Part shown: positions 14,006 through 59,866 of the stretch, piece by piece
How positions within the stretch are numbered: the first letter of the stretch is position 1
How the letters are laid out: the number at the start of each line of letters is the position of its first letter
From: Diplonema papillatum
Lineage: Eukaryota > Euglenozoa > Diplonemea > Diplonemida > Diplonemidae
DNA length: 64,000 nt
NCBI GenBank assembly: GCA_030068145.1
Contig: JAPJBO010000486.1
Location: 62,001 to 126,000 of the forward strand
Direction of reading: 5' to 3'
Position numbers and translations under genes: made by a program
Notes under the pieces: generated by a model
Database searches by the model: none
Seen by the model: only the letters and a program-made list of their open reading frames with translations
Told to the model about the DNA's origin: nothing

Positions 14006-14210
14006 GTGCACCGAGAAGCAGCAAGTCTCGGACGAGTACCGATCGTTGTGGCCGGCGATTTTAATGCGTCGGCGGCGATGTCGTGCATGCTGCGTTCGGG
14101 ATGGTCCGACGCCGCAGAGATCTGCTCCGCTGGCGGTGCCCCGAAGACGTACGAGAGGACAGGGACGCGAGGCACACGCATCTATCACGTCTTACTGACG
14201 ACGTCGCGAT
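14006..14210 (+). pseudogene. LINE apurinic endonuclease domain, C-terminal fragment
   Basis: VPIVVAGDFNA carries the GDFN motif of the exonuclease-endonuclease-phosphatase fold, and GTRIYHVLLT matches the R-I-D/x-x-V-L strand near the domain's end. In active LINE endonucleases this domain nicks target DNA. Only about the last 80 residues remain. A frameshift near 14,196 separates it from the reverse transcriptase frame (…VVVDAEGQRVPSHKMVTVELD). Confidence 0.7.
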
Positions 14211-14219
14211 ACACTCAGT

Positions 14220-16028
14220 GAGACCACCGTCGTCGTAGACGCGGAAGGGCAGCGGGTGCCCAGCCACAAGATGGTGACGGTAGAGCTGGACATCACCGCG
14301 TTTGCAGACACATGTGAGAGGTACCGCATGCCAAGGTCCCTGAGCAAAGCAGCCGTGACGCACGAAGGACGGGCAACAGCGCGGGCGGAAGAGTTGTTAG
14401 TGAAGCACCGGTTCGAAGATGCAGCACCAGAAGACGTGGAAGCACTCTGGGTGTCGGCAACTAAGGCGTGCGAGGGGTATCTGGTCGAGCTGGCGGAGAA
14501 ACAGGGGTTGCTCGACGGGCCCGTTGCCGCCTATCAAGGACGGGGTGAGACAAGAAAGCCTAAGAGAGAACATTTTGCGTCCGTGACAGACACCGGGACG
14601 GGCGCGGGTACGTATGCCTCAAGCAGATTCCGGAAGATATTGAACGGCCTCGACGCCTACATCCGAGGGCTGCAAACACTGAGTGGGGAAGGACCCGGGT
14701 GCATGCCGAGATCGCTGGAGAAGACGTGGGAGAACGTAGTATCGGGACTGGAATCAATGGCCGGACGAGTACCAAAGGTGCGCGATTTGCCGCGACGCCC
14801 GCCGGACTTGAGCGTCGCCCAGACCTTGAGGCAGAAGCTGGAAGCGAGGAGCCGGTCACTGACAGCACAGGCGCGAAAGGGGAGAATAGCTCAGCTGGAG
14901 AGCAAGATGCAGAACTTCCACTGTGCAAACAGGGCGCAACTGCTTCCGTGGTGCAGAAGGAAGAAGGCGGACGGTCTGGTGGCGCTGAAAGTGGATGGCC
15001 GCTACACGGCAAATCTACGGGAGATCGACGCGACGTTGCAGAAAGAATGGGCGCCCATCAACCGGATGTACGCGAGTAGACCGGAACCGTGCTATGAAGC
15101 CTTCAAGGCGGAGTATGCGGAATACATCCGATGTCGACCGATGGTGTGCCGAGATTTGACGGGCGATGATCTGAGGAGCGTTCTTGGAAAGAAGCAGCGT
15201 GCCGGAGTCCCGGGCGTGGACGGATGGAGCACAGCAGAGTTAAAGAAGCTGCCACTGCCGTTGCTGAACGCCCTGGCGAAGGTGTTCAACGCGATAGAAG
15301 CGACCGGAACGTGGCCGAACGCGTTGTTGGAAGCCGCGGTCACGCTGATCCCGAAAGACGAAACCCTCGACCCGCTGGCATTGCGGCCCATCACCGTCAC
15401 AAGCGCGGTCTATCGCTTGTGGGCGAGCACGAGGCTCAGGGACGTCGTCCAGTGGCAAGAAGGCTGGATAGCAGATAGCCAGCACGGGTTCAGGCCCAAA
15501 CACGGAACCGTGGACGTGGTGTTTGAAATCGCCTCGCAGATTGAAGAGGCTCTCTTGACGGGAAAGGAGCTGTACGGCGTGGCCCTAGACTTTGCCAAGT
15601 GCTTCGACAAAGTGCCACGAGACGTCGTGCTGAAGCTGGTGGGGGATCTTGGCCTCCATGAGAGAATTCTCGGGCGCGATGTTTACGCGCGACTACGAAG
15701 GCGGTACAAGTTGCGCATGCGGCTGGGAGACATCTTTTACACCACCAACGGGATACTGCAGGGCTGCCCCCAGAGCGTGATCCTCATCAACGCGCTGCTG
15801 TCCATCGTGGTGCGCAGAGTGGACGACGTGGGGGGGGTGACGAGCGAGTCCTTCGCGGACGACCTCACCCTCCTGACGCGTCTCAGGGAAGCATGCTTGC
15901 AGGACTTGGTGGAAGTCGATAGATTTTGTGCGAACACCGGCATGTCGATCGGGATACCGAAGAAGTTCGCTTTTGGGACGCCGAAGGGGTACGAAGCGAA
16001 GTTGAAAATGGTGGCACCGACATCGTGA
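14220..16028 (+). CDS. LINE reverse transcriptase fragment
   Basis: The open frame covers the RT fingers and palm. Visible motifs: GVPGVDGWSTAELK, VTLIPKD with LRPITVTSAVYRL, GFRPKHGTVDVVF, VALDFAKCFDKVP (catalytic D) and NGILQGCPQS, then SFADDLTLL, where FADD replaces the usual YADD. RT copies the element RNA at a nicked genomic target. There is no ATG at the start of the frame: it continues from the endonuclease in another frame, so this is a fragment of one ORF2 and not an independent gene. It ends at a frameshift shortly after the palm. Confidence 0.85.
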   Translation, partial: ETTVVVDAEGQRVPSHKMVTVELDITAFADTCERYRMPRSLSKAAVTHEGRATARAEELLVKHRFEDAAPEDVEALWVSATKACEGYLVELAEKQGLLDGPVAAYQGRGETRKPKREHFASVTDTGTGAGTYASSRFRKILNGLDAYIRGLQTLSGEGPGCMPRSLEKTWENVVSGLESMAGRVPKVRDLPRRPPDLSVAQTLRQKLEARSRSLTAQARKGRIAQLESKMQNFHCANRAQLLPWCRRKKADGLVALKVDGRYTANLREIDATLQKEWAPINRMYASRPEPCYEAFKAEYAEYIRCRPMVCRDLTGDDLRSVLGKKQRAGVPGVDGWSTAELKKLPLPLLNALAKVFNAIEATGTWPNALLEAAVTLIPKDETLDPLALRPITVTSAVYRLWASTRLRDVVQWQEGWIADSQHGFRPKHGTVDVVFEIASQIEEALLTGKELYGVALDFAKCFDKVPRDVVLKLVGDLGLHERILGRDVYARLRRRYKLRMRLGDIFYTTNGILQGCPQSVILINALLSIVVRRVDDVGGVTSESFADDLTLLTRLREACLQDLVEVDRFCANTGMSIGIPKKFAFGTPKGYEAKLKMVAPTS

Positions 16029-16083
16029 CGATCTGGTCGGCACGAAGCGGACACGCAGAACCGACCTGCGCTACGACCAGCGT

Positions 16084-17525
16084 GCAGAGGAGGCCGAACG
16101 GTTGGGTGCCTTACCGATCTCGAGGGCGCAGAGGTCGGGGCTAGCCACGATGGCGGTTCTACCGGCGGCGACGTACGGCTCCGAGTTCGTGCTCCCGACG
16201 GTGCGGGGGCTGGGGAAGTTCACCGCAGCACTACTCAGAGGAGTCTGGGACCCGGTGAGACTGCATAGGGAGAGGCCGTGTTGGGCATTCTCAACAAGGC
16301 CCACTTACTCGACCCATACGCAGTGCTGCCGTATCGGTCACTCGGCATGATCGCAGAAGTGTGCCGAAAAAGGCCGGCGTGGAGGGCCCGCGTCGCAACA
16401 GTTCGACGGGCGTATGGCAGCAGAATCCGCGCATGGGGACCGGTCGGTATTGCGGCCGAGCATGCAAAAAAGCTCGGTATACGATGGACGGAAGATTTCG
16501 ACAACGCCGAGGACGAGGCAGGGAATGTGCTGAGGCTGGTGCGACAAAGCAAGGGGGAGCGAGGGCACACCCTGAGAAAGCTGATTCGCGGCTGGCGACT
16601 AGGGGAGCTTGAGAAGAGGCGGGTAGACTTCGATGGGGTACGGGCAGGTGTAGAGTACGTCGCGACGAATGCCTACGGGCTGAAGGCGTCGACAACGCTG
16701 ACGGCTGCACGGGACGTTGCCGAGGTCGTGGCTGGGTCGGTGATGACGGAGTCACATGCTGCCAAGCTGTGGGGAGGTGACGGGCTGTGCAGACGCTGTG
16801 TCGAGCCGACGGAGGAAACCCTGGGCCACATTTGGTGGCAATGCCGGGCGTACGAACGGATCCGAGCGCAACACCAGTATGCCGAAATTGTTGGCGCGGA
16901 TCGCTCGACTTGGCCCCCGTGCCTGCAAGAACACGGGATTCTGCCGAAGGGAAGTCGAGTCAGCATCGAAGTGCTGCACACGTTCATGGCGGAGGTCATG
17001 CACGAGAGACGACGGCTGGAGAGGGAAGGAAGAGACCGGGCGGTCGGCCACCCCTGGAGACAACTGCACCCCGACGACTGCCCCCCGCGCCGACTGAATT
17101 TCGAAGCGATCGCTGGACCGGGGACCTTCGCGGCGGTCGGAGGAGAGAGGTGGTTCCGGGCGCTGCAACATTGGCTGGATGGGATGTGCTGGTCGGTAGC
17201 GGGTGACGTTTCGACAGCGGAGCTCGCCATCGACTTTGAAGTGTACACCGGGCTCGATCTGCCGGGCAGTGTCGTAGCAACGACGGACGGGACACCGTTG
17301 AGCATGCGTGCGAGGGTACTCGCAAGGCTTTTGAAAACCGTCGGGGATGCGCTGGAGCGAAACGGCGACGAACCGCCTCTGCCGGGAAGGAAACTGGGGA
17401 CGATAGGGTCGCTGAGAACGGTGGGAGCCCCGCCGTTGCCTCACGGGGTACGAGATGAGGCCAATCTTCCGTGGCAATCTTCCGTGGTGGTACGGAGACG
17501 ATGGAAGTGCTCGAGACGCAGCTGA
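16084..17525 (+). pseudogene. LINE ORF2 C-terminal region with zinc finger
   Basis: A plus-strand frame at about 16,084-16,278 (…RSGLATMAVLPAATYGSEFV…LLRGVWDP) shifts into one running to 17,525 (LGILNKAHLLDPYAVLPYRSL…). The second part contains CRRCVEPTEETLGHIWWQC, the C-x2-C-x8-H-x4-C finger typical of LINE ORF2 C-termini (zf-RVT). No RNase H motif was recognised. The two frameshifts make it non-functional here. The 3' end overlaps the following Cys/His ORF by a few codons. Confidence 0.7.
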
Positions 17526-42659: not shown

Positions 42660-44249
<1,590 letters not shown>

Positions 44250-44618
44250 CGAGCACGTGGCGCGTTCCCCTGTATGCGTCACAAGGTTTACAGTTTTGCG
44301 GCCTGCCGATCTTGTTTGCGGATTCCTTTTCCTTTTCTCCGCTCTCGCCTCTTCTCGCTCCCCTCCTGTTAGTGTTTTTCGAATACCGGAATTTTTGAGA
44401 TTACGCAGGCCAGTAAAGCACCGGGTCGACCGTCGAGGCGGGCGGTTTGAAGTGTTCGGGCTGAGAGCACGTAATGCGAAATGTGAAGTGTTCTCCTCGA
44501 TGGTGCGTTTGGTTTTGGGTTCTGGCGGGACAAACCTGATCCAAATGGGGGAAATTTTGAAAAATCTGGTGGCGCTCGGGAGTTCTACCAGGAAAATGTA
44601 CAACTCCAGGACACAGGC

Positions 44619-45010
44619 TTGTACCTACCTGTGACAAGGTGTGTACCTGTACCGGTGAGTGTACCTACAGGGAAACGGCAACGAACTTCGAGAGCTGAAC
44701 GCGACGATCAAGAGAGAATGACACTTCACGTGCGTCGTCCTGCTGTGCACGAGGGCGATGGCTTTGGCAAAAAGTGGCAAGCGCCAGCTCCGACCCCATC
44801 TGTGACTGAACCGACGCCAGGAAAACGATGACGAAGGATGACGACCCCTGCAACGAAAGAAGTACCCAACGCCACGCGTAAAACGGAAGGGAGTATCCAC
44901 ACCAGCAGGGAAGGGACGCAAAGCTGGTGCAAAAATGAGTGTACGCAGAAAACCCCGACTAGACCATCGCCCTAGATTATCTGCATTCTATCCTCAAACG
45001 TTCACGGTAT
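44619..45010 (+). mobile_element. Diverged fragment related to the LINE 3' end
   Basis: GAACGCGACGATCAAGAGAG and ATGACACTTCACGTGCG match the C-terminal part of the LINE Cys/His ORF at about 18,365-18,420. ACCATCGCCC and TATCTGCATTCTATCC at about 44,965-44,995 resemble its tail (GATGCAGATAT…GCATTCTAACCC). The middle differs, so this is an old or rearranged relative lying upstream of the cyclin gene. Confidence 0.4.
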
Positions 45011-53861: not shown

Positions 53862-53864
53862 TTA

Positions 53865-53902
53865 GGGAAGCCACAATTAACATTTTGGTAGACATTTTCC
53901 AC
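53865..53902 (+). repeat. Left terminal inverted repeat of the 6-kb element
   Basis: Perfect 38-bp match to the inverse of 59,826-59,863. Preceded by TTA and followed after a few bases by a C-tract (53,912-53,920). Confidence 0.9.
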
Positions 53903-53934
53903 GAAAACCGACCCCCCCCCTAATTTCCGAGATT

Positions 53935-54058
53935 TTCGGAGTCGATTCCTGCCCTTGGCATTTTTTCGCAAAACGCCACGGTTCGATTCCTGCTCTTGGC
54001 ATTTTTTTCGCAAAAATCCCGCGGTTCGATTCCTGCTCCGAGCATTTTTTTCCATTTT
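53935..54058 (+). repeat. Three tandem tRNA T-arm-like units with T-runs
   Basis: Three units of about 40 bp each read GGTTCGATTCCTGCTC/CCTTGGCA followed by six or more T. The first has GAGTCGATTCC. GGTTCGATTCC equals the B-box/T-loop consensus and the T-run resembles a Pol III terminator. No D-arm or anticodon arm is present, so these are 3'-half tRNA-like sequences, not tRNA genes. Confidence 0.6.
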
Positions 54059-54059
54059 A

Positions 54060-55745
54060 GTCAGGTGGATGCACAAGCGTGTTCTGGCCGAGATCACGCG
54101 TGTGCACCTCTCAGAGTGACAGAACTTTGACGTCTCCGTCCAAATTGTGGCTGAACACGCGTGTTCTTGCCGAGAACACGCTTGTGCCGCCGGGTGCGAA
54201 CTAGTTGCACAAGCGTATTCTGGCCGGTCCGCTCGCAATTTTGTTGGATGCAATTTGGTGCCGTAGACGCGGGTTCAATCCCGGCAGCTGGACGTTTTTC
54301 CAGTTTAGTCAGGTGGATGCACAAGCGTGTTCTGGCCGAGATCACGCGTGTGCACCTCGCAAAAAGACAGAACTTGGATGTCTCCGTCCAAATTGTGGCT
54401 GCACAAGCGGGTTCTTCCCGAGAACACGCTTGTGCCGCCGGTTGCGAACTGGTTGCACAAGCGTATTCTGGCCGGTCGCAATTTTGTTAGATGCAATTTG
54501 GTGCTGTAGACACGGGTTCAATCCCGGCAGCTGGACGTTTTTCCAGTTTAGTCAGGTGGATGCACAAGCGTGTTCTGGCCGAGATCACGCGTGTGCACCT
54601 CTCAAAGTGACAGAACTTTGACGTCTCCGTCCAAATTGTGGCTGCACAAGCGGGTTCTTGCCGAGAACACGCTTGTGCCGCCGGTTGTGAACTGGCAGGG
54701 CAGAATGTGTTGACCGAGGTGCCGGCCCGGCGGCACAAGCGTGTTCTCGGCAAGAACCCGCTTGTGCAGCCACAATTTGGACGGAGACGTCAAAGTTCTG
54801 TCACTTTGAGCACCTCTCGTGCACACGCGTGATCTCGGCCAGAACACGCTTGTGCATCCACCTGACTAAACCGGAAAACGTCCAGCTGCCGGGATTGAAC
54901 CCGCGTCTACAGCACCAAATTGCATCCAACAAAATTGCGACCGGCCAGAATACGCTTGTGCAACCAGTTCGCAACCGGCGGCACAAGCGTGTTCTCGGCA
55001 AGAACCCGCTTGTGCAGCCACGATTTGGACGGAGACGTCAAAGTTCTGTCACTTTGCGAGGTGCACACGCGCGATCTCGGCCAGAACACGCTTGTGCATC
55101 CACCTGACTAAACTGGAAAAACGTCCAGCTGCCGGGATTGAACCCGCGTCTACAGCACCAAATTGCATCCATCCAACAAAACTGCGACCGGCCAGAATAC
55201 GCTTGTGCAACCAGTTCGCACCCGGCGGCACAAGCATGTTCTCGGCAAGAACCCGCTTGTGCAGCCACAATTTGGACGGAGACGTCAAAGTTCTGTCACT
55301 TTGAGAGGTGCACACGCATGATCTCGGCCAGAACACGCTTGTGCATCCACCTGACTAAAATGGAAAAACGTCCAGGTGCCGGGGATTGAACCCGCGTCTA
55401 CGGCACCAAATTGCATCCAACAAAATTGCGACCGGCCAGAATACGCTTGTGCAACCAGTTCGCAACCGGCGGCACACGCATGTTCTGGCCGAGAACATGC
55501 TTGTGCAGCCACAATTTGGACGGAGACGTCAAAGTTCTGTCACTTTGAGAGGTCCACACGCGTGATCTCGGCCAGAACACGCTTGTGCATCCACCTGACT
55601 AAACTGGAAAACGTCCAGCTGCCGGGGATTGAACCCGCGTCTACGGAACCAAATTGCATCCAACAAAATTGCGACCGGCCAGAATACTTGTGCATCCACC
55701 TGACTAAAATTGAGAAAACGTCCAGCTGCCGGGGATTGAACCCGG
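54060..55745. repeat. Inverted array of about 235-bp units containing T-arm-like sequence
   Basis: About three units in one orientation (54,060-54,700) and about four to five in the other (54,730-55,745) meet near 54,715. Each holds GGATGCACAAGCGTGTTCTG, ACGTCTCCGTCCAAATTGTG and GCACAAGCGTATTCTGGCCG, plus GGGTTCAATCCCGGCAGCTG followed by a GACGTTTTTCC run. The last resembles the 3' part of a tRNA plus terminator. All apparent reading frames here are translations of the repeat. The origin could be a tRNA-derived SINE amplified in tandem. Confidence 0.8.
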
Positions 55746-55795
55746 GTCAATGGCTCCGGAGTCGCCAACCTTGCGACTCAGCCACACTGCTACGT
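55727..55795 (-). ncRNA. tRNA-like sequence (SINE head or tRNA pseudogene)
   Basis: On the minus strand: GTGGCTGAGTCGCAAGG (A-box/D-arm-like), a possible TGGC…GCCA anticodon stem with an irregular loop, then CCGGGTTCAATCCCCGG, a perfect 5-bp T-stem with a B-box. The expected 7-bp acceptor stem does not pair, so it is unlikely to be a functional tRNA. The other array units keep only the T-arm portion, so this may be the fullest version of the ancestral unit. Confidence 0.4.
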
Positions 55796-56061
55796 ATCGG
55801 CAGGAAAAAAAAAAAATGCATCACCGCATGGTCTTCAGACGGATTTTCGAAGATTACGCGGTTTCATACTTCGTGAGCGTAATTCTCGCACACCCCTGGA
55901 CGTTCTTGCGCCATGTGGACTATGAAATGGTGTCAGGCACGTTACTAAGCACATACCAGCCTTGTGGGAGATCATCAGGTTGTGTGCAGCCTAAACATCA
56001 GGTTGTCGTTCGTTGTCGTTGGAACGAAATCCAAACGTGATTTTTCAGGTGGAAAAACAGG

Positions 56062-56112
56062 GGTCGACACAAGGGTCCGCGGTTCGAACCCCACGAAGGA
56101 CTTTTTTTTGGG
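56062..56112 (+). repeat. T-arm-like sequence with T8 run
   Basis: GTCCGCGGTTCGAACCCCAC followed by GAAGGAC and eight T. This is a canonical T-loop (TTCGAAC) with an adjacent Pol III-type terminator, again without the 5' half of a tRNA. A second poly-C tract follows at about 56,140-56,157. Confidence 0.5.
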
Positions 56113-56177
56113 TCGATTCCCACAGGTGACATTTTTACCCCCCCCCCCCCCCCCCCAGGCATCTTGCACGACGCACT

Positions 56178-56340
56178 AGTAAGGTACATAACTTGTGAAA
56201 ATAACTAGTTATTTTATAACTAGTTATATTTGATAACTTGTGACTAGCTCGTGCTAGTTATATAACTAGCTTGTGCTAGTTATATAACTAGCTTGTGCTA
56301 GTTATATAACTAGCTCTGCTAGTTATATAACTAGCTCCTA
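56178..56340. repeat. AT-rich tandem repeat (ACTAGTTATATA type)
   Basis: Roughly 20-bp units of CTAGTTATATAACTAGCTTG, each itself nearly palindromic, repeated about five to six times just left of the deletion derivative. Confidence 0.85.
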
Positions 56341-56342
56341 GG

Positions 56343-56725
56343 GTATTTTACGGGTGAAATGCATTGAAATACACCATCACTAAACAGCTACCACAGCTCG
56401 AAAGACACAAAATAACAAGAAAACAGCAGCCTCGCAGGGAATGTGCCAGCAGGACCAAGAAGGGAAGTGTGTTGTTACAAACTGAGGCCGTGGAAAATCA
56501 GAATGTTCCACACGATACTTCGTCTGATGCACTCCTATGAATGTGTGGACGCAGAAACTCTGCGGGCACATGGGAACTAACTGCCGAGAACCGGGCGCGA
56601 CTGGGACTATCACTCAACGCATGCGCAGAGCGGATACGGATCGTGAAGGAAGAAACTGGGTTGCTATGCGCCGAGGCTGCCGCATCGTGGCTCCTATTAT
56701 GCAAATTCTCTCACTTGTAACTTGC
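56343..56725 (+). pseudogene. Internal-deletion derivative of the gene A/gene B cassette
   Basis: Its left part (GGTATTTTACGG…GAAATGCATTGAAATAC, 56,350-56,400) matches the leader of gene A at 56,733-56,790. Its right part (GACGCAGAAACTCTGCGGGC … CACTCAACGCATGCGCAGAG … GTGAAGGAAGAAACTGGG, 56,541-56,670) matches the start of gene B at 58,163-58,280. Gene A is missing in between, and a 1-nt deletion breaks the gene B frame. This tandem, internally deleted copy is characteristic of mobile DNA. Confidence 0.75.
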
Positions 56726-56807
56726 TCCTCATGGTATTTTACGGAGAAATGCACTGAAATACTGCCCACTGAACGGCGACCACAGCTGATATACACGAAT
56801 AATCAAA

Positions 56808-57839
56808 ATGAGCAAGCGCGCACGTGAGACAAAGGCGAAGACACCCGAGAAGAAGAAGCAGAAGTCCGGCGACTTGGAGCCGGACGCGAATGCCAAGACG
56901 GACGCGAACATCGTGGAAGACTTCGTGGAGTTGTTTTTGATGGTAAAGGAGGGAGAGGAGGTCCAACACGTGCCTTTGAAGGCACTGGTGGGACAGCTTT
57001 TTGGTCTCTCGTTGTCAACGAAGAATGGCATCCTCGGCAAGGCTATTGCCGCAAAGTTTCCTGCGCTCAAGGCGCTGAAAAACCAGACCCAAACAATTGG
57101 CTCAAAACTCTATTCGCTGCGGGTGAAAATGAACACCGACTTGGTGTTCCGCGGTGTCGGGCTCCGCAAAAAGCTGACGGCCACGGCGAAGGACTCGGAG
57201 GCGTACCACCGATTGAAGGCGGCTACGGTAGGCGATGTCAACCTGGAAACGGTTGACTTGCCGTCCTTATACAAGTGCAAGACGGCATCGGGGGCTATTA
57301 CTCCCGCTGCTGCTGTCACAGGGACTCGCAGAAACAAGTGGCCGGACATCACTGTCCTGGGGAGGAAACAGGTGCGCGAAGAGGGTGTGGACGTCACCTA
57401 CTTCTGCATCGTTATCGAAAGTGGGTGCAGTGTCGTGTCGACTGTGCACCCACCGACGCTGACAGGCAACCGGCTGGATTTCACGTTTCTTCGTGAACGT
57501 CCGTCGGAGCACTGTGAGGCTGGTTTGTACACCGGAAGCTACACCCTCCCTCCAGACGTCATGATCGACAGTGTCCGGCCCCTGCAGGTCCGGGGGGCTA
57601 GCGGGGGATTTGCAACCTTTGTGAACTTTCCCCTGTCGAGGAAGAAACATAGCGTGAGCCTGCAGCCCGGTGACTGGCGCAGCAATCCAGATGTCGTGGG
57701 GCTTTTCTCCGACTCGGGGGACGACGCTGATGGCATCGAGGATGAGGACGACGACGACAAAGACTCTCAAATCAAAGCCGACGTGGAGGATGATCCTGAT
57801 GCCAGCGACAATGAGAGCGTGACGTTTGTTCCCAACTGA
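56808..57839 (+). CDS. Element gene A: 343-aa protein, basic start and acidic tail
   Basis: ATG at 56,808 in a good context (CAAAATGA), uninterrupted to 57,839. Residues 1-20 are Lys/Arg-rich (KRARETKAKTPEKKKQK, a likely nuclear signal). A helical segment follows (VEDFVELFLMVKEG … VPLKALVGQLFGLSLSTKNG), then a K/R-rich stretch (GSKLYSLRVKMNTDLVFRG). The middle holds predicted strands around TYFCIVIESGCSVVS. The end is strongly acidic (DSGDDADGIEDEDDDDKDS). I recognise no domain. Its position before gene B inside the same TIRs suggests an accessory DNA-binding or capsid-like protein. A promoter should lie in the duplicated GGTATTTTACGG leader. Confidence 0.7.
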   Translation: MSKRARETKAKTPEKKKQKSGDLEPDANAKTDANIVEDFVELFLMVKEGEEVQHVPLKALVGQLFGLSLSTKNGILGKAIAAKFPALKALKNQTQTIGSKLYSLRVKMNTDLVFRGVGLRKKLTATAKDSEAYHRLKAATVGDVNLETVDLPSLYKCKTASGAITPAAAVTGTRRNKWPDITVLGRKQVREEGVDVTYFCIVIESGCSVVSTVHPPTLTGNRLDFTFLRERPSEHCEAGLYTGSYTLPPDVMIDSVRPLQVRGASGGFATFVNFPLSRKKHSVSLQPGDWRSNPDVVGLFSDSGDDADGIEDEDDDDKDSQIKADVEDDPDASDNESVTFVPN

Positions 57840-58160
57840 AAACCTTTTTGTTTTTGCAGCACCAAAATCAGATCATCCTTTTTATTTTGTACTCCGTTTT
57901 TTGAGCAAACCAAGGTACAGGCACATCACATACCGGTAAGCAACATTGACACTTTGCGGGTTACGTAAGCAACTTTTAAAACTTCGCTGGTCACAACAGT
58001 TTTTGATGAGTAGGATGCGGTCTTCCAGGTTCCTCGTAGGGAAGTGTCGAACGAGGAAGGAAATTTATTGTTAGAACCAGACCATGGATACCACTTGAAA
58101 TCTTCCGCAGGACAAAAAAAATACTCCATTCTTTCCTGGCCAGCTTACACTCTTAAGAAG

Positions 58161-59105
58161 ATGGACGCAGAAACTGTGCGGGCAATTGGGAAGATAATAG
58201 CCGAGAACCGGACGCGATTGGGACTATCACTCAACGCTTGCGCAGAACTTGGACGGATAGTGAAGGAAGAAACTGGGATTGCGATGGGGCTGTCGCAATC
58301 GGTCGTGGCCAAGGCCGGCGAAGACTTCAAGCTGATGGCAGGTAGGGCCCTGGGGAATATCGCGGAATCCCTCCAGTTTTTATTGCGCAAATTTCCGTTC
58401 AAGACGTGTAGGGAGGCTCCCTCCGTGATTATATTCATGGACGCGTACAACACGGGGAATGCCTTTCGCTCTCGGAGCTCCAGGCAGCGGCTGGCCATCT
58501 CCCTCTCGGCTGGGAGGACTGCGACACGCTTTCTTACAGTTTGTGACAAGCGAAAGCCGCAGTTCCACGAATGGTGGATATTCAACGCCTTGCCGCAGCT
58601 GACGCAGATTCAGACGGGCAGTTTCAGCAAAGGGAAGCACGCAGCCTCTGTACAGCTGTTTCGCTTCGGCGGGGATCATGCGGAGCTGTGGTCGCTGTTC
58701 AGTGGTGTTGGCGGTTCTGGCCATCGTAGTGCGTTTTGTACGACGGCTGCCGGTGACTGGCTAGAGCAACTGCACGCCTGCGAGAGGCTCAGCCTGCAAG
58801 AGATGCATGCAGCCGGCTATACATGCCACATCGCGCAACGGTTCCTGCAACCGTGCTTCACGATGACCCCGGCCCTGCACGACGTGAAAGGGATGATACG
58901 CCTCATTCAGCACCGCCCTGCCGTGACATGTGAGTGCAAGGAAGACTGTCCCGCCTGTGCGAAGTCTGTACTAAAACGTGGCTTGAGCCAACATATCTTG
59001 TACAACCATGCAAGTCTACTGACAAAGACGAAGTTTCCTCTGTGTCTTGAGAGCTTTTCCTCCGCAAGACTAAGAGACTCGCACATGAAGAAACGCCATC
59101 TGTGA
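58161..59105 (+). CDS. Element gene B: candidate transposase with C-terminal zinc finger
   Basis: The ATG at 58,161 is chosen because the tandem derivative conserves sequence from this point. The product is 314 residues. The N-terminal 60 residues (MDAETVRAIGKIIAENR…GLSQSVVAKAGEDFK) look helical, like a DNA-binding module. The core has VIIFMDAYNTGNAFRSRSSR and LFRFGGDHAELWSLFSGVGG, a D…G-G-D spacing and context reminiscent of the first two acidic positions of RNase-H-fold (DDE/D) transposases. The third acid is not identified. The C-terminus carries CECKEDCPACAKS … LSQHILYNH and LRDSHMKKRH, C2H2-like finger remnants. No family name can be given. Transposase identity is an inference from context and motif spacing. 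Confidence 0.6.
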   Translation: MDAETVRAIGKIIAENRTRLGLSLNACAELGRIVKEETGIAMGLSQSVVAKAGEDFKLMAGRALGNIAESLQFLLRKFPFKTCREAPSVIIFMDAYNTGNAFRSRSSRQRLAISLSAGRTATRFLTVCDKRKPQFHEWWIFNALPQLTQIQTGSFSKGKHAASVQLFRFGGDHAELWSLFSGVGGSGHRSAFCTTAAGDWLEQLHACERLSLQEMHAAGYTCHIAQRFLQPCFTMTPALHDVKGMIRLIQHRPAVTCECKEDCPACAKSVLKRGLSQHILYNHASLLTKTKFPLCLESFSSARLRDSHMKKRHL

Positions 59106-59109
59106 GGGG

Positions 59110-59744
59110 AGAGAGCGGTGTTAGCTTTGTTCTCCGACCATCTGTCTCCTTCTACAGCTCTGTAAAGCATTTCTGTTCAGATCGATTACCTCAAGACGCT
59201 TCTTGCTTCACCGTTCCGCTAAGGTGAACACAACGAAGAGACAACCGAGACAGCCGAGCAGATAGCAGAAAAAGCGGGCCAGGACACCTAGTCCGAGTGA
59301 TATACACGTCCTTTTTGACTCAACTCAATGCAGTTTCACTGTATTTCACTGGTTATTCTGCTGCGAAAGCACATGGTAAATCGGCCAAATTTGCTCGAAT
59401 TTTCACTTTTTGGGCCAATTTTCCAGATTTTGGCTGATTTTTGAGTGCACTGCAGGAATCTTGGTTTTCGGGGAAACTGACTTTGCTCAAAAGTTGCTAA
59501 GTACATTTCCCTGCCAAAAAAGTGCAGGAAAACATTTTGGTGGGGATTGACCTTTTTTCCGCAAAAGTGTGTTTCGATTTCGAAAACGAGGAGAACGGAT
59601 TCATCTGGAGGAAACGGAGTACCCACTCGGCACCGGGGGGTCTGGCAAACACCCCAAAAACAGCCCCCAAAACGACCCCCCCCCAAAAGGGGGGTGCAAC
59701 GGGGGCAACGTCCCTTAGTGCGCACCCTGGGGGGAGGGGGGGGG
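59110..59744. other. Right flank of the gene A/B cassette
   Basis: About 59,322-59,350 (reverse complement CCAGTGAAATACAGTGAAAC) weakly resembles the gene A leader (GGAGAAATGCACTGAAATAC at 56,742). It could be the inner element's opposite terminal repeat. No further gene. Confidence 0.35.
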
Positions 59745-59811
59745 TCTGGTTTATCCGGCCATCCGGCCAAAGTGGCTGATCCTTAACAAGAGCGCTGCCC
59801 CCCCCCCCCTA
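59745..59811 (+). repeat. 54-bp repeat extension and poly-C, second copy
   Basis: Nearly identical to 5,548-5,617: GTCTGGTTTATCCGGCCATC, then GATCCTTAACAAGAGCGCTG and a C-tract. It lies just inside the right TIR of the 6-kb element. Confidence 0.85.
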
Positions 59812-59825
59812 TTTTCGGAAATTTG

Positions 59826-59863
59826 GTGGAAAATGTCTACCAAAATGTTAATTGTGGCTTCCC
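59826..59863 (-). repeat. Right terminal inverted repeat of the 6-kb element
   Basis: Perfect inverse of 53,865-53,902, followed by TTA at 59,864-59,866. Confidence 0.9.
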
Positions 59864-59866
59864 TTA

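Follow-up and report, generated by a model that had tools for sequence, protein, structure and literature searches.

Here we examine a 6-kb interval (positions 53865 to 59863) of a 64,000-nucleotide stretch of the Diplonema papillatum genome (contig JAPJBO010000486.1, positions 62,001 to 126,000, forward strand; hereafter the window), in which two inverted copies of a 38-bp sequence enclose two open reading frames, termed A and B. The original prediction, made from the letters of the window, took the interval for a single DNA transposon with perfect 38-bp terminal inverted repeats (TIRs), a TTA duplication and two intact genes. Our analysis favours, with a probability of about 85%, two unrelated cut-and-paste DNA transposons, one nested inside the other: an outer element bounded by the 38-mers, and an inner element to which A and B belong. 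A transposon stranded within another can pass for a single new two-gene element. The features of the interval, in window positions, are as follows.

53862 to 53864, no strand: outer target-site duplication TTA, left
53865 to 53902, plus strand: outer TIR, left, L-type, then GAAAACCGACCCC
53865 to 56151, plus strand: sequence native to the non-autonomous outer element, comprising its left part and main body, with 245-bp tandem units in two opposed arrays, then poly-C at 56138 to 56156
56157 to 59797, no strand: insert within the outer poly-C tract; undisturbed copies run from poly-C directly into TATTTTCGG
56167 to 59363, plus strand: inner transposon with A and B, without its right end; intact copies are about 200 bp longer, to ...CTAGTGCGTCGTG
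56167 to 56180, plus strand: inner left terminus CACGACGCACTAGT, with a near-identical start in a sister family
56235 to 56337, no strand: GCTAGTTATATAACTAGC palindromes in a subterminal array, which intact copies also have, inverted, at their right end
56546 to 56668, plus strand: upstream of A, a degenerate copy (about 86%) of the 5' part of the B coding sequence
56808 to 57839, plus strand: gene A, 343 amino acids, with a basic N-terminus and an acidic tail; putative subterminal-repeat-binding, TnpA-like role
58161 to 59105, plus strand: gene B, deletion form, 314 amino acids from the ATG at 58161; open frame 58044 to 59105, 363 amino acids
58907 to 58908, no strand: junction of an 894-bp in-frame internal deletion in B (298 codons)
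59364 to 59797, no strand: foreign piece, in which 59365 to 59744 corresponds to a repeat close to the copy of the inner element on contig C120
59798 to 59863, plus strand: R-type right end, native to the outer element
59826 to 59863, minus strand: outer TIR, right
59864 to 59866, no strand: outer target-site duplication TTA, right

Nesting of one transposon within another

All genome searches were run against the window's own assembly (271 Mb in 2910 contigs), in which the window's contig is designated C486. The two 38-mers are indeed identical and inverted (two matches in the window, none in 100 shuffles), and a genome-wide search for them, a check proposed with the original prediction, bears them out as true transposon ends. 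With up to three mismatches tolerated, the 38-mer occurs at 93 places, 47 in forward and 46 in reverse orientation, and its backward control at none. Candidate pairs of opposite orientation on the same contig number 25; flanks were read for 18, the window's among them, and left unread for those on C189, C320, C577, C647, C689, C1226 and C1352. Identical 3-bp flanks were found in 15 of the 18 pairs (TTA, TTT, TTA, TAA, TTG, TGT, TTA, GGA, TAA, TAT, CTA, TAA, TAA, TTT and CTA). The pairs on C633 and C1702 are one insertion on two contigs, with identical 60-bp flanks, so that 14 of 17 distinct sites have a 3-bp duplication. The predicted TTA does lie outside both 38-mers here, and it is one of many 3-bp flanks in the family; their variety means that the duplication is 3 bp long but not TTA-specific.

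The ends are of two types, L, in which the TIR is followed by GAAAACC, and R (CAAATTTCCGAAAATAGG), with one of each in 17 of the 18 pairs. A left flank, and the left only, is common to C101 and C113. Most outer termini start GGGGAG; the three that start GGGAAG are all on C486 (positions 42222, 115865 and 121826 of that contig), and both ends of the window's element are of this kind, a pattern suggestive of local transposition or of end-to-end conversion.

Seventeen other pairs were fetched, and most of them have the stretch from 53865 to 56151 wholly or largely in common with the window (C127 and C312 less of it). Twelve of these copies were examined at the poly-C tract, which runs uninterrupted into TATTTTCGG in 11 of them; the window has 3.6 kb inserted there. 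Window positions 56152 to 59797 have no match at the DNA level in any of the 17 other pairs, none of which encodes A or B (queries: A, the window's B and full-length B). The copy on C201 is interrupted at the same tract by another sequence, 1.4 kb long, in which TTCGAGAATGGGCAAAAAGTTA-like units form arrays in both orientations; this tract may thus be a hotspot of insertion or recombination. Within the outer body, the 245-bp units form their two opposed arrays at 54023 to 55700, with inverted arms of up to 302 nt at 96%, and contain GGGATTGAACCCGCGTC, which we take to resemble the B box of tRNA genes. Rfam gave no match to the window at gathering score, and long frames within the repeat arrays were rejected as genes, since they result from the 245-bp units being read through.

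Elsewhere in the assembly, A and B lie between termini of their own, CACGACG...CGTCGTG, with 2-bp duplications, a result that overturns the claim of a single 6-kb transposon. The 2-bp flanks match in 10 of the 11 inner copies read at both ends (TA five times, TG twice, and CA, TT and AA once each); the two TG copies, C107 and C114, have common flanks and are best counted once, giving 9 of 10. This count leaves aside C120, C127 and C640, in whose fetched sequence no left end was located. Aligned A/B copies part company at the right directly past GTGCGTCGTG. The window ceases to match the inner element at about 59363, some 200 bp before the right end, and another repeat follows, from which we conclude that the window copy is stranded. 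Long aligned pieces of the inner copies match the window at 97.9 to 100%, which argues for recent activity.

That A and B are enclosed by perfect 38-bp TIRs and a TTA duplication would fit one 6-kb two-gene transposon, with A and B driving the 38-mer ends, and among 21 sister-family copies of A there is one, on C189, that also has a 38-mer within 13 kb; such nesting may have occurred twice. The original prediction had itself named, as evidence that would tell against it, copies of the genes elsewhere that are not flanked by the 38-mer. A search with A gave 95 matches, of which 24 are full-length and 100% identical, and only one of the 24, the window's own, has a 38-mer within 13 kb. Set beside the absence of A and B from the 17 other pairs, the separate ends and 2-bp duplications of A/B copies, and the presence of another gene, of 1907 amino acids, at recurrent distances from the 38-mers, this leaves the single-element explanation with hardly any probability.

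A 1907-amino-acid gene as the probable driver of the outer family

The outer-family element on C1518, 12,383 bp long and flanked by CTA on both sides, contains an open frame of 1907 amino acids. A 1001-bp probe from this gene has 21 matches in the genome, 14 of them identical full copies. Each of these 14 has a 38-mer no more than 8 kb away, and the share of the genome within 13 kb of one is at most 0.9%. Seven probe copies stand 3198 to 3199 bp from a terminus, five directly and two (C1226 and C647) once strand is considered. Frames at the 14 full copies range from 1213 to 1940 amino acids, with 1907 amino acids in seven. The gene is associated with the 38-mers, and its product, DDE-like in sequence, is probably the driver of their family.

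Alternatively, the nesting could hold and the 1907-amino-acid gene could be an independent third element, frequently lodged in 38-mer elements without driving them. A and B demonstrate that nesting occurs in this genome, and the C1518 element holds other sequence, common only to C818, with an RNase H-like frame. We nevertheless consider this improbable in view of the proximity of all 14 full copies to a 38-mer and the distance of 3198 to 3199 bp from a terminus in seven copies. The gene-bearing block of C1518 also has no 12-mers common to its two borders, direct or inverted, and no full copies of the gene with borders of their own and without a nearby 38-mer were seen.

In the 1907-amino-acid protein, the motifs SCDAK (D1166), SDNATDYN (D1283) and NPVER (E1327) have a DD43E spacing. 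Matches to helix-turn-helix (HTH) and SAP domains are weak, and an HTH_32-like segment lies ahead of the DDE region. An OTU-like stretch matches PDB entry 4bou (E = 0.0014 over 29 residues), and Pfam OTU gave no match up to E = 10. The protein has DGNC from 1749 and HYDFV at 1859; DGNC with a late His is presumably the OTU protease motif. The DDE region has 81 further matches in the genome, of which 20 fall within open frames 1749 to 1929 amino acids long, which argues for a multi-family lineage of giant transposase-like genes. A short relative on C883 is a broken fragment, and a scan of viral contigs with the DDE region found no relatives.

Genes A and B and the deletion form of B

Gene A matches no Pfam family above cut-off. 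A search with B gave 131 matches in the genome, and at least 16 copies identical to it over residues 1 to 250 have a 661-amino-acid open frame (13 read). Of the two long intact genes originally claimed, both frames are open in the window, but B is not intact, being 894 bp short of these copies. Full-length B (612 amino acids from the ATG) consists of an N-terminal part, a DDE-like core and C-terminal C2H2 fingers (Pfam zf-Di19, 2.3e-6). Across seven aligned sequences D94 and D172 are invariant; E382, within NGERK, is present in the six that span the site, as is an H(3)H motif ahead of it, HS[ML][SE]HW. The window's B retains D94, D172 and part of the C2H2 region, and is without the candidate catalytic Glu. 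Scans of viral and prokaryote contigs found no relatives of B.

A and B occur together and adjacent in sister families (A at 47% with B at 66%; A at 37% with B at 56%). Codon positions 1 and 2 are more conserved than position 3 (0.65 against 0.38 in A, 0.76 against 0.46 in B), so both genes encode constrained proteins; the ratio of nonsynonymous to synonymous substitution (dN/dS) is about 0.21 for A and about 0.12 for B, with dS saturated. In two sister-family copies whose left ends were read, the end is TA-CACGACGCACTTGTTAG and is accompanied by an array of another palindrome, CACTTGTTATATAACAAGTG. Such a change of palindrome with the A/B family is expected if A or B binds the array, and offers a clean test of co-evolution between a transposase partner and its site.

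The 363-amino-acid deletion frame is also found on C27, C220, C438, C618, C708 and C120, at 99 to 100% identity. The left flanks of five other deletion-form copies are all different, so the deletion form itself moved, presumably with enzyme in trans. A similar middle part of B is missing in copies of other families (C14, C948 and C1582). The deletion form might be a selected repressor, of which the KP elements of Drosophila are an example, and not a passive passenger. The frame is kept in all seven deletion copies found, six of which (C120 being the other) are among the 24 full-length copies of A, and the loss recurs in other families. Set against this, the near-identity of the seven in B makes them too young for selection to show, and two of the three such other-family copies read, L096 and L097, have a frameshift close to the junction. 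A repressor therefore seems unlikely to us, and the near-identical deletion forms provide a test case for self-repression.

On the nested reading, the outer element is a non-autonomous member of a family with 38-bp TIRs that makes 3-bp duplications, and would be moved in trans by the 1907-amino-acid DDE-like protein of larger relatives such as the 12.4-kb element on C1518. A 3.6-kb piece bearing the right-truncated inner two-gene transposon later entered its poly-C tract. In intact inner copies, B would act as a DDE transposase at the CACGACG...CGTCGTG ends, making the 2-bp duplications, and A would bind the palindromic subterminal arrays, B and A resembling TnpD and TnpA of CACTA elements, respectively. 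The internal-deletion form of B spread first, presumably through enzyme in trans, and the window copy was stranded afterwards. Both families have been recently active and have enzymes that look unlike those of the protein libraries searched; a search of the literature found neither the inner nor the outer family described.

Several points weigh against this reading or parts of it. Some insertions are present twice in the assembly (C633/C1702), so copy numbers are places and not certainly independent loci, and with only three mismatches tolerated, older 38-mer ends near A/B copies could be missed. Flanks do not match in three of the 18 outer pairs (C113, C201 and C312), the last of which was rejected as an element on account of its two L ends, and the inner copy on C1188, at a contig end, has no matching 2-bp flanks. 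The core of B has no match in Pfam or PDB, and its further invariant acidic residues (D129, E175 and D241) make the triad of D94, D172 and E382 a choice. The DDE region of the 1907-amino-acid protein has no match in the libraries beyond weak HTH, and its gene was read end to end in C1518 only, the others being known by their distance to a terminus only.

Neighbouring elements and comparison with known systems

In the region 33000 to 42600 of C486, another outer-family end is followed by frames of 599 and 965 amino acids. We read this region as a Penelope-like retroelement, the first frame having a GIY-YIG-like start and the second a reverse transcriptase with a USP-type deubiquitinase stretch. 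Deubiquitinase-like parts thus occur in two unrelated mobile elements, USP-type in the 965-amino-acid frame and OTU-like in the 1907-amino-acid protein. Within the window, a 654-amino-acid frame at 42663 to 44624 has a very long glutamine run and what we take to be a cyclin-like stretch, and frames of 609 and 418 amino acids at 14199 to 17522 are presumably reverse-transcriptase-like and of retroelement origin. The 5.8S rRNA genes (40 places scored) are dispersed over many contigs and not gathered in one array, with pairs spaced about 7.63 kb apart on four contigs.

The placement of both enzymes in a superfamily is provisional. One account of the CMCT group (CACTA/EnSpm, ESTA) gives 5'-CA..TG-3' termini, duplications of 2 to 5 bp, H(3-4)H before the Glu and C(2)C, and describes ESTA as EnSpm-like with TA duplications (PMC12730594). 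The inner element has CA..TG termini (CACGACG...CGTCGTG, the left end of the sister family being alike), 2-bp duplications within that range (10 of 11 copies, five of them TA) and H(3)H before the candidate Glu, and has subterminal repeat arrays and two genes in common with CACTA elements. In maize Spm/En, as one source describes it, two proteins are required, TnpA, which binds subterminal repeats, and the transposase TnpD (PMC2613891); by analogy, A may be the site-binding protein and B the transposase. The distance between the two Asp residues is 78 in B and 80 as reported for CACTA, and LH-x3-G past the second Asp of B is like a motif reported in the same source (PMC1636069).

Unlike CMCT transposases, B has no C(2)C between the second Asp and the Glu: C193, C207 and C222 are invariant, without a conserved CxxC. 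Transposase_21 (PF02992), of CACTA/EnSpm, matches none of the seven aligned B members, and a search of the genome for it gave no matches, the control being equally silent. B also differs from CACTA in its C-terminal C2H2 fingers, and A and B are two separate open frames rather than spliced forms. Pfam searches found no TET/JBP match in A or B. Anatomy and predicted working point to the inner element as a candidate member of the CACTA/EnSpm-like (CMCT) group. Should the inner family prove to be a CMCT branch lacking C(2)C, it would be informative on how much of the zinc-binding region RAG1-like transposases can do without.

PIF/Harbinger elements have two genes and a 3-bp target site of TWA type. 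The interval recalls them in its TTA duplication and in its two genes, which belong to another element. The original prediction already saw no Harbinger hallmarks in either protein, and both proteins are indeed unfamiliar; the outer element was rejected as PIF/Harbinger on the free 3-bp site (TTT, TTG, TGT, GGA, TAT and CTA besides TTA and TAA). Zator/ISAzo13 elements are described as making 3-bp duplications (PMC10045372), as the outer family does in 15 of 18 pairs. The HTH_32-like segment ahead of the DDE region is a further resemblance, and the 1907-amino-acid protein differs from them in its length and in its SAP- and OTU-like parts. An hhalign comparison of the outer DDE region, as a single sequence, with an ISAzo13 profile (47 proteins from 80 listed loci) was no better than shuffles, scoring 15.1 against a median of 14.3 and a top of 25.0 for 60 shuffles and 18.7 for the reversed sequence. 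An ISAzo13 motif has 42 residues from the second D to the E, compared with 43 in the 1907-amino-acid protein, in which Pfam gave no match to PF07592 (ISAzo13) up to E = 10. Ginger1 is described as having a DDE transposase with a C-terminal OTU or Ulp1 protease, TGTNR ends and 4-bp CCGG/CCGT duplications (PMC2836005). An OTU-like stretch C-terminal to a DDE-like region is common to both; the outer element was rejected as Ginger1 on its GGGGAGCC ends and 3-bp duplications.

A joint proposal, which we put forward tentatively and regard as doubtful in its entirety, is that B (612 amino acids, with a DDE-like core without C(2)C, a C2H2 tail, the partner A and family-differing palindrome arrays) may represent a new superfamily-level lineage outside the described CMCT groups, that the 1907-amino-acid DD43E/SAP/OTU-like protein may likewise represent a new superfamily-level lineage, one of giant transposases that comprises several families within a single genome, and that the frame-keeping, spreading deletion forms of B may act as built-in repressors.

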